From contig NZ_WAHS01000001.1 in the NCBI RefSeq assembly GCF_015714715.1, positions 1,922,001 to 1,986,000 of the forward strand: DNA of 64,000 nucleotides. The letters run 5' to 3'. The notes under the pieces were generated by a model. The model saw only the letters and a list, made by a program, of their open reading frames with translations. It ran no database searches and had not been told where the DNA came from. Shown piece by piece: positions 60,865 through 64,000 of the stretch. The stretch's first letter is position 1. Each line of letters starts with the position of its first letter. The position numbers were made by a program, and so were the translations under genes. The DNA is from Aestuariivirga litoralis (lineage in GTDB: Bacteria > Pseudomonadota > Alphaproteobacteria > Rhizobiales > Aestuariivirgaceae).

Positions 60865-60954
60865 TGGCGGAGAGGGAGGGATTCGAACCCCCGGTACACT
60901 TGCGTGTACTTCGCATTTCGAGTGCGACGCGATCGACCACTCTGCCACCTCTCC
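60865..60954 (-). tRNA. tRNA-Ser(CGA)
   Basis: On the minus strand the 90-base tRNA has acceptor arms GGAGAGG/CCTCTCC, D-loop AGAGTGGTCGA, anticodon CGA (complement of 60918-60920), a long variable arm GTACACG-CAAGTGTAC and the T-loop GGTTCGAATCC, ending in an encoded CCA. The long variable arm is diagnostic of class II serine tRNA. Confidence 0.95.
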
Positions 60955-63012: not shown

Positions 63013-63183
63013 TTAGACGCCTTTGAGCAGGCAGCCGCCGGCCAGAATGACAAAGGCAATGGTCATCACCCAAAACGACGGTACGGGGATCATTGCCAGC
63101 ACGCCGAAGAACATCAGCAGGGCCAGGATGGCCACGACCAATGCAATGATGAAGACGATTTGGGTTGGTGCGCTTAATTTCAT
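63013..63183 (-). CDS. small two-helix membrane protein, hypothetical
   Basis: This 56-residue protein has two hydrophobic helices (about 8-31 and 37-51) joined by I-P-V-P-S-F-W and ends C-L-L-K-G-V. The ATG is preceded by GAGGG 7 bases upstream and a perfect terminator hairpin follows the stop, which together make a real gene likely. I recognise no family. Confidence 0.7.
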   Translation of the reverse strand: MKLSAPTQIVFIIALVVAILALLMFFGVLAMIPVPSFWVMTIAFVILAGGCLLKGV

Positions 63184-63375: not shown

Positions 63376-63393
63376 GTATCAACTCAATGATAC
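63376..63393. promoter_or_regulatory. inverted repeat upstream of the precursor peptide gene
   Basis: GTATCA-N6-TGATAC lies 19-36 bases upstream of the peptide ATG, just before the AAGAGG ribosome site. It may be an operator or a 5'UTR hairpin. The arms are short. Confidence 0.35.
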
Positions 63394-63411
63394 CTAACAA
63401 GAGGTCCTAAA

Positions 63412-63498
63412 ATGAAGAAGCTCTCGCTCAATATCGCCAAGTCTGACGTCCGCAAGGCCGGCATTGTTAACGTGTCGCTGCAGTATCGCAACAGCTAA
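63412..63498 (+). CDS. short peptide ORF, probable RiPP precursor
   Basis: This 28-residue peptide starts M-K-K-L-S-L-N-I and ends S-L-Q-Y-R-N-S. It has no Cys and no Thr; Ser are at 5, 11, 22 and 28, Asn at 7, 20 and 27, Tyr at 25, and an A16-G17 pair could mark leader cleavage. A strong AAGAGG ribosome site is 7 bases upstream. It is followed after 60 bases by a SagB-like modification enzyme gene and a strong hairpin, the layout of RiPP precursor genes. I do not recognise the peptide class. Confidence 0.6.
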   Translation: MKKLSLNIAKSDVRKAGIVNVSLQYRNS

Positions 63499-63507
63499 GC
63501 TGTTCCT

Positions 63508-63533
63508 GGGTCGGCAGTCCGGACTGCCGGCCC
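63508..63533. terminator. strong hairpin between precursor peptide and SagB-like gene
   Basis: CGGCAGTCCGGACTGCCG (63512-63529) is a perfect palindrome, extended by a T-G wobble and GGG/CCC pairs on both sides. There is no T-run. In RiPP operons such stems after the precursor keep enzyme expression below precursor expression, or stabilise the precursor mRNA. Confidence 0.65.
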
Positions 63534-63558
63534 ACTCCTGCCCCCTGGAGTCCCTCCC

Positions 63559-64000
63559 ATGCGCGTGAAATCTGCCGCAACGCTTGTTACCTTTCCGCAA
63601 GGCGAAGAGGCCAAGATCTACAATTACCTCAGCAAAGATGTGATTACCTGCGATGCGGCTGCCGTGAACTGGCTGCTGGCCATCCAGGATTGGTCGACGA
63701 TCGACGAAATCGCAGCGCGCAACATCGAGTTCGACGCGGAGTCGATCGCCGGGGAAATCGAGCAGCTAGTAGCTTGCGGGATTTTTCTGGAAGAGAGCTC
63801 AGCGGCCGCCAGGCGCGAAGCTGAATACACCGCCACTTGGGAATTCGGCCCAACGGCCGGCATTTTCCATTTTGGCATCATGGACAATGAATTCGAGAAT
63901 GTGGAATTCGGCGTGGCGCGCCAAAAGGAGCGCGCCAAGACCAACCCTTCGCCCAAACTGATCTGGCGCGATGACCAGCCCGATGTGAAATTGCCCCTCA
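63559..64000 (+). CDS. SagB/ThcOx-like dehydrogenase, N-terminal part (truncated by window end)
   Basis: Only the first 147 residues are in the window. An N-terminal helical region (about 20-80) resembles the winged-helix/RRE-like part of SagB-related proteins. Then comes W94-E-F-G-P98 and I-F-H-F-G (about 102-106), the W-x-x-G-P ... F-H-F pattern at the front of SagB-type FMN dehydrogenases, which oxidise azolines or other modified residues in RiPPs. The nitroreductase core lies beyond 64000. A GGAG site precedes the ATG. Confidence 0.65.
   Translation, partial: MRVKSAATLVTFPQGEEAKIYNYLSKDVITCDAAAVNWLLAIQDWSTIDEIAARNIEFDAESIAGEIEQLVACGIFLEESSAAARREAEYTATWEFGPTAGIFHFGIMDNEFENVEFGVARQKERAKTNPSPKLIWRDDQPDVKLPL

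Follow-up and report, generated by a model that had tools for sequence, protein, structure and literature searches.

At the right edge of the window (the whole stretch of DNA analysed here, 64,000 nucleotides long, bases 1,922,001-1,986,000 of contig C1, from a genome of 3.3 Mb) a very short open reading frame lies in front of a gene for a SagB/ThcOx-like dehydrogenase. SagB-type oxidases are best known for finishing azoles made by YcaO enzymes. The question raised by this locus is whether the two genes belong together and what an oxidase of this type could do with such a peptide. The first-pass annotation took them for the start of an undescribed cluster for a ribosomally made, modified peptide (RiPP). 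We found that the pair is spread over several families of one bacterial order (Hyphomicrobiales), in scattered relatives, and that it probably represents a minimal machinery, so far undescribed, for the production of a modified peptide.

The peptide gene, the SagB gene and their surroundings

The features of the locus, all on the forward strand, are:

63376..63393, +, inverted repeat GTATCA-N6-TGATAC upstream of the peptide gene, a possible operator or 5′-UTR hairpin
63400..63404, +, ribosome-binding site AGAGG of the peptide gene, read from the sequence before the ATG
63412..63498, +, putative precursor peptide, 28 aa, C-terminus YRNS
63508..63533, +, hairpin between the peptide and SagB genes, 11 pairs, 4-base loop, no T-run
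63547..63550, +, ribosome-binding site GGAG of the SagB gene, read from the sequence
63559..64000, +, first 147 codons of a SagB-family peptide dehydrogenase, which runs on to C1:1986689 (376 aa in total)

The 28-codon ORF encodes MKKLSLNIAKSDVRKAGIVNVSLQYRNS. The peptide gene and its ribosome site are present as first annotated, and the translated ORF does contain no Cys and no Thr; one Ser stands at its end. Neither the window peptide nor the one to three peptides of relatives compared alongside it had a family match in the libraries scanned. Annotation would tend to miss the system, because the peptides are very short and have no family match in these libraries. Several relatives also carry inverted repeats at a similar place, approximately 36-46 nt before the peptide start codon. 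Across several loci these repeats have no common sequence, and a fixed operator is at most a possibility. Further upstream in the window lie an ORF for a 56-aa hydrophobic, probably membrane protein (63013-63183, minus strand), apparently unrelated to the pair, and a tRNA-Ser (cga) gene (60865-60954, minus strand).

The proposed SagB/ThcOx-like dehydrogenase was borne out beyond the edge, where the gene is intact (L003:1560-2690, 376 aa, no internal stop). Its product scores 103.6 bits against the NCBIfam SagB model TIGR03605, which is above the cut-off of 78.4, and 61.6 bits against Pfam Nitroreductase. A Lys-Tyr pair that aligns with ThcOx sits in the motif RxxWKYxxxxAYR, which is found in 24 of 24 members of the clade described below. 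The W-x-x-G-P motif that was annotated first is present at residues 94-98, but only its W is invariant in 11 aligned relatives, so that it is not diagnostic. The N-terminal domain (about residues 1-95) is possibly RRE-like: a comparison with PqqD by hhalign gave a weak match (P = 0.0043, probability 8%), and one of 100 column-shuffled control profiles scored equally high. Against PDB sequences this domain gave no match (best E 0.37).

Downstream of SagB a convergent DUF1194 gene is followed by the 5S and 23S rRNA genes of an rRNA operon. A search of the window's genome for YcaO (PF02624) gave no match at E <= 0.001; the same search was positive in five of 14 control genomes. Exporter, protease and radical SAM genes were not seen adjoining the pair in ORFs read by eye, with the downstream sequence partly masked. 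Reading past position 64,000 thus delivered the nitroreductase/SagB core that the first-pass annotation had looked for, but, as far as seen, none of the accessory genes. Its idea that a bigger RiPP cluster starts at the edge was not supported, and a larger cluster was rejected in view of the DUF1194 and rRNA genes (part of the sequence beyond the edge is masked).

Conservation of the pair and of the hairpin

The nearest named relative found is an Aestuariivirga MAG (L004). A SagB search of 69 genomes of the family matched 19 genomes at E <= 1e-3. Fourteen of them, including the window's, have an intact upstream region, a contig end truncates two (G046, G008), and three matches are distant (G037, G040, G041; E 4e-9 to 2e-6). 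Run over 397 genomes sampled across the order, a SagB profile picked out 15 (E <= 1e-30), of which five were already known, eight were new and close, and two were distant. The plasmid NZ_CP084754.1 (Roseateles sp. XES5, flagged as an unverified organism) adds one locus. Altogether, 14 + 8 + 1 = 23 loci were compared, the window counted. Since all further matches, in samples of the class (six of 385) and of the phylum (17 of 398), are distant (E 1e-43 or weaker), the close SagB clade looks confined to one order, the doubtful XES5 label aside. One SagB frame (L046, genome G074) carries an in-frame TAG, and this copy may be inactive for that reason.

The conserved short ORF that the first-pass annotation expected at this place in relatives was found: in all 23 loci an ORF of 26-42 codons (start codons chosen by us) ends shortly upstream of SagB. 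The peptide ends in [YFL]-[ND]-K-x in 21 of the 23, for example in YNKV in the Aestuariivirga MAG (locus L010); the window has YRNS and XES5 has YRAE. A fixed rule asked for an ORF of 20-60 codons with its stop close to where the next gene begins and with the C-terminus [YFL]-[ND]-K-x. Of 24 SagB ORFs 19 had such a neighbour, whereas none of 300 other ORFs (at least 150 aa, from the fetched loci) did. This control set comes from related genomes, is therefore non-independent and includes a few SagBs of other contexts lacking TPSGGARNP, the string used to recognise SagB. Five SagB ORFs escaped the rule: those of the window and XES5 with their variant peptide ends, that of L063, where the peptide lies inside a longer frame, and those of L076 and L078, which are SagBs of another context. 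The SagB of L058 was outside the 24 tested; its peptide was nonetheless seen. Among 24 distant SagB loci, no short ORF of this type was found in the fetched upstream flank. The PLSDB gene list for NZ_CP084754.1, an incomplete table, does not contain the peptide.

A profile of the peptide, run over the 69 family genomes, gave 14 matches at E <= 1e-3, each immediately before SagB, and the genomes are exactly those with SagB and an intact upstream region. These 14 are profile rows or a near-copy and match by construction, so that what carries information is the lack of matches in the remaining genomes. Eleven further matches elsewhere in the genomes (E 0.19-0.97) were counted as noise. The co-occurrence of the two genes, suggested earlier as a check, was thereby confirmed, and together with the sporadic distribution these counts led us to reject a chance ORF beside a housekeeping nitroreductase. 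A housekeeping role of the enzyme, which would have spoken against the first annotation, is disfavoured as well, since SagB is sporadic in the order and its partnership with the peptide is fixed.

The window peptide differs from most of its relatives at the C-terminus, and its membership was assessed with a profile made from the other 20 peptides, its own row omitted. It scored highest among the window's 1926 six-frame segments (E = 0.0056), with a match spanning positions 1-26 of 33, which is the leader part and not the C-terminus. By this comparison the resemblance of the window ORF to the family peptides is more than chance. Four close genomes of another family gave six pairs with 3-8 synonymous changes in approximately 21 sites and 0-3 non-synonymous changes in approximately 72; one further peptide pair has 6 synonymous changes in 18 sites and 3 non-synonymous changes in 60. 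In these close genomes, where it is testable, the peptide is by this substitution pattern under purifying selection; a strain near enough for such a count on the window's own peptide was not found.

Cys, Ser and Thr are all missing from the last eight residues in 13 of the 23 peptides, any Cys is present in only four, and a conserved Cys, Ser or Thr was not found among the 23. A thiazole/oxazole route was rejected in view of this composition and of the YcaO search of the genome.

The hairpin described first as perfect is present with its 11 pairs, but one of these is a G-U pair (reading by eye) and the longest gap-free Watson-Crick stem is 7. The 60-nt gap between the peptide and SagB genes folds at −28.9 kcal/mol (z = −3.03), and none of 200 shuffles was equally stable. 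A terminator scan of the window did not list the hairpin, which without a T-run is not terminator-like. In the first 50 nt behind the peptide stop, z is <= −2 in 21 of 23 loci (median −4.6). The ends of other ORFs from these loci, with a minimum length of 150 aa, served for comparison, and there 29 of 225 reach this value (median −0.16; P = 3e-12 in a one-sided Mann-Whitney test, with related and therefore non-independent loci). The two misses are the window itself, at −1.94 in this shorter stretch, and G002, which has unread bases there. The stem sequences vary among loci, so that it is the structure and not the sequence that is kept.

This hairpin is also what the chief rival explanation builds on. 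The peptide could be a regulatory leader peptide, on which the ribosome stalls at [YFL]-[ND]-K-x-stop, so that the hairpin opens or closes and SagB expression is switched; SagB itself would act on a substrate other than the peptide. Such an attenuator would account for the conserved C-terminus together with the conserved hairpin directly behind the stop, and in a few relatives (e.g., G015, G045, G025) T-rich sequence was seen by eye after the stem. However, the window and XES5 have kept the hairpin without the [ND]-K end, the window peptide is joined to the family through its leader part and not through the C-terminus, no terminator was called at the window hairpin, and most loci already own a dedicated regulator. 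We regard the attenuator as unlikely.

Regulator, SagB clade and sister contexts

A helix-turn-helix regulator is encoded within approximately 1 kb of the pair in 21 of the 23 loci; the window and G003 lack it there. The seven rows of the profile used were drawn from these same loci and so match by construction. Beside other SagBs the regulator was found in 0 of 9 loci, and beside the two cut contigs in 0 of 2. The C-terminal domain of the regulator is conserved in alignment A2. In two regulators this domain had no Pfam or NCBIfam match apart from one meaningless sub-threshold NCBIfam match at residues 81-103, and PDB matches covered the helix-turn-helix part only. Regulators of the A2 family are encoded elsewhere in the window's genome, one nearly full-length (C1:674552-675343, L068) and one matching in its first half only (C1:500259-500606, L069); no SagB adjoins either of them.

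A small protein, helical by eye, accompanies the pair in 15 of the 23 loci (six of which were seeds; weakest match E = 1e-4), encoded either between the regulator and the peptide or directly downstream of SagB. A search of the window, of the surroundings of the complete SagB gene and of those of the two distant regulators did not find it. Anti-phage defence was considered and rejected, as PADLOC was blank for two SagBs and one small protein and gave weak helix-turn-helix matches only for one regulator. Carriage by phages was rejected as well: 18 pattern stretches were found in viral contigs, with no relative among them.

A tree built from 38 SagB sequences unites the peptide-type SagBs, 24 of 24 (the 23 loci and the truncated G046), in one clade with a support of 97/92. 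The window SagB nests with G002, G003, G024, G015 and G004 (98/96), all of which have the common peptide ending; thus, the YRNS end of the window peptide is derived. Such a change is what would be expected if the system is real in the relatives and the window's own copy is decaying or re-specialised. The window also has neither the regulator nor the small helical protein, present in 21 and 15 of the 23 loci, respectively. On the other side, its SagB has no stop and has kept the WKY residues, and hairpin, ribosome sites and leader are all retained. In XES5 a peptide with a similar end, YRAE, occurs next to a regulator, and the window's genome does hold two paralogues of the regulator at other places. 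Decay or re-specialisation is in our view improbable, a judgement that is not exclusive because this reading overlaps with that of a precursor and its oxidase.

Outside the clade are SagBs of Sinorhizobium and R. leguminosarum plasmids and Rhizobium SagBs in other contexts. On the conjugative Sinorhizobium plasmid pSMED03 (NC_009622.1, L080 1-7409) the sister SagB lies near a 26.7-kb NRPS gene, with a phosphopantetheinyl transferase gene adjoining. On R. rhododendri pTi6.2 (L079 5540-9399), and also in L006 and L081, SagB is found with a 113-aa protein and an amidase-like protein (named by eye); L079 additionally has an MFS transporter gene. The 113-aa Rhizobium protein might be another kind of precursor. 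As a separate observation, in G044 (L033 7899-10048) SagB and EamA-transporter genes are followed by pqqC-, pqqD- and pqqE-like genes, the pqqD-like gene assigned by a PqqD-family match and the other two by eye.

Since the sister SagBs occur in different surroundings, and in one case next to an NRPS gene, enzymes of this type are not bound to ribosomal peptides. The peptide-type SagBs could accordingly oxidise a non-ribosomal or small-molecule substrate, with the peptide as an unmodified small partner protein, for example a modulator of activity. Besides the NRPS and phosphopantetheinyl transferase genes of the Sinorhizobium plasmid and the amidase-like protein and transporter of the Rhizobium loci, the NRPS-bound oxidase BmdC speaks for this, which according to the excerpted text of PMC8795117 also has an RRE-like domain. 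But the peptide-type SagBs form a clade apart from these sisters, which fits a change of substrate, and no NRPS was seen adjoining peptide-type pairs in ORFs read by eye. We consider a substrate other than the peptide very unlikely.

A putative YcaO-free route and its relation to known systems

An encoded putative precursor that is conserved next to a putative modifying enzyme is the arrangement of a RiPP locus, and we infer a RiPP function for the pair. We think it likely that the two genes are a minimal YcaO-free RiPP-like system consisting of a precursor and a dedicated SagB oxidase. The short peptide would be the ribosomally made precursor. Its leader part would be held by the N-terminal approximately 95 residues of SagB, possibly an RRE-like winged helix. 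SagB would act as an FMN oxidase dedicated to the peptide, with the Lys-Tyr pair of its nitroreductase domain as general base, and this domain would take two electrons from a residue near the peptide C-terminus. The hairpin behind the peptide gene may keep the precursor mRNA above the enzyme mRNA. In most relatives the neighbouring helix-turn-helix regulator, often together with the small helical protein, could control the operon or read its product. A route without YcaO fits the absence of a detected YcaO and the 13 peptides whose last eight residues include no Cys, Ser or Thr.

The modification site would likely lie in the last four residues, because the family is conserved there; the window deviates in just this part. 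Our best guess for the chemistry, drawn by analogy with the action of cyclodipeptide oxidase on cyclic dipeptides and a long shot at best, is alpha,beta-dehydrogenation of the bulky Tyr, Phe or Leu that stands fourth from the C-terminus; a ring closure may follow. Points against a precursor and its oxidase are that the window peptide lacks [ND]-K, that the window locus lacks the regulator and that no exporter or protease was seen nearby; the weak RRE match of the N-terminal domain and the other contexts of the sister SagBs count against it as well. An intracellular or signalling product is attractive, because no exporter or protease is visible and the link to the regulator is tight. In its most far-reaching form the proposal would be a new class of ribosomal natural product, made by an oxidase-only, YcaO-free pathway of two genes that is so far seen in Hyphomicrobiales. 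The [YFL]-[ND]-K-x end of a peptide of 26-42 residues would be oxidised, and the product would be a small signal, acting inside the cell or between cells, to which the helix-turn-helix regulator usually encoded alongside responds. This form is conceivable but rather doubtful.

The undescribed RiPP system of the first-pass annotation thus stands with its SagB core and its short ORF in relatives, not with a larger cluster, and its RiPP function stays a proposal. In contrast to the usual role of SagB as helper of YcaO, one SagB clade has here its own tiny precursor family and usually a regulator too. Should no enzyme but the oxidase modify the peptide, the pathway would be about the simplest that a RiPP can have, testable with two genes in E. 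coli. A description of the peptide/SagB pair was not found in the open-access papers searched.

With the SagB/ThcOx/McbC azoline dehydrogenases the window enzyme shares the SagB family score, the Lys-Tyr pair aligned with ThcOx and the nitroreductase fold family. The thiazole/oxazole-modified microcins are different, as the window's genome has no detected YcaO and the family peptides have no conserved Cys, Ser or Thr. Over most of SagB the top-scoring NCBIfam model is TIGR04511, a putative peptide maturation dehydrogenase, yet the score of 137.6 bits is under its 240-bit cut-off. The usual partners of TIGR04511 are other precursor and cyclase families.

The nearest published account is cluster OS3 of Pseudomonas sp. 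Os17, a YcaO-free precedent in which, as far as the excerpted text goes, a small precursor is combined with a SagB-type gene and homologues of sagC and sagD were not found (PMC7726476). The OS3 precursor, however, has 85 aa and is annotated as a nitrile hydratase alpha chain, and the same excerpt lists acetyltransferase, peptidase-like and efflux genes (PMC7726476). The precursors of the window type have 26-42 aa, and such acetyltransferase, peptidase-like and efflux genes were not seen with them.

The SagB oxidase domain matches BmdC by sequence (E 9e-12). BmdC is described in the part of PMC8795117 used here as the thiazoline oxidase of the bacillamide NRPS, with an N-terminal winged-helix domain similar to an RRE and an FMN oxidase domain; ThcOx carries additional RRE copies according to the same part. 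Size and plan of the two proteins are similar, the RRE-like domain being only possible in the window SagB, but the partner of BmdC is an NRPS module, whereas here it is a short peptide gene.

For the chemistry, an excerpt of PMC11055893 ascribes an important catalytic role in TOMM dehydrogenases to a Lys-Tyr motif and reports that in cyclodipeptide oxidase a catalytic Tyr serves alpha,beta-dehydrogenation. The nitroreductase-like cyclodipeptide oxidase AlbAB is the model for the dehydrogenation guessed above; it uses cyclic dipeptides and forms filaments (PMC11055893), and it belongs to a different subfamily from the window SagB. Excerpts of other articles place SagB-like enzymes beside the genes of one branch of ATP-grasp enzymes (PMC8939145), use PF00881 as a marker of RiPP genes (PMC12710340) and mention an MNIO-nitroreductase fusion (PMC13060819).
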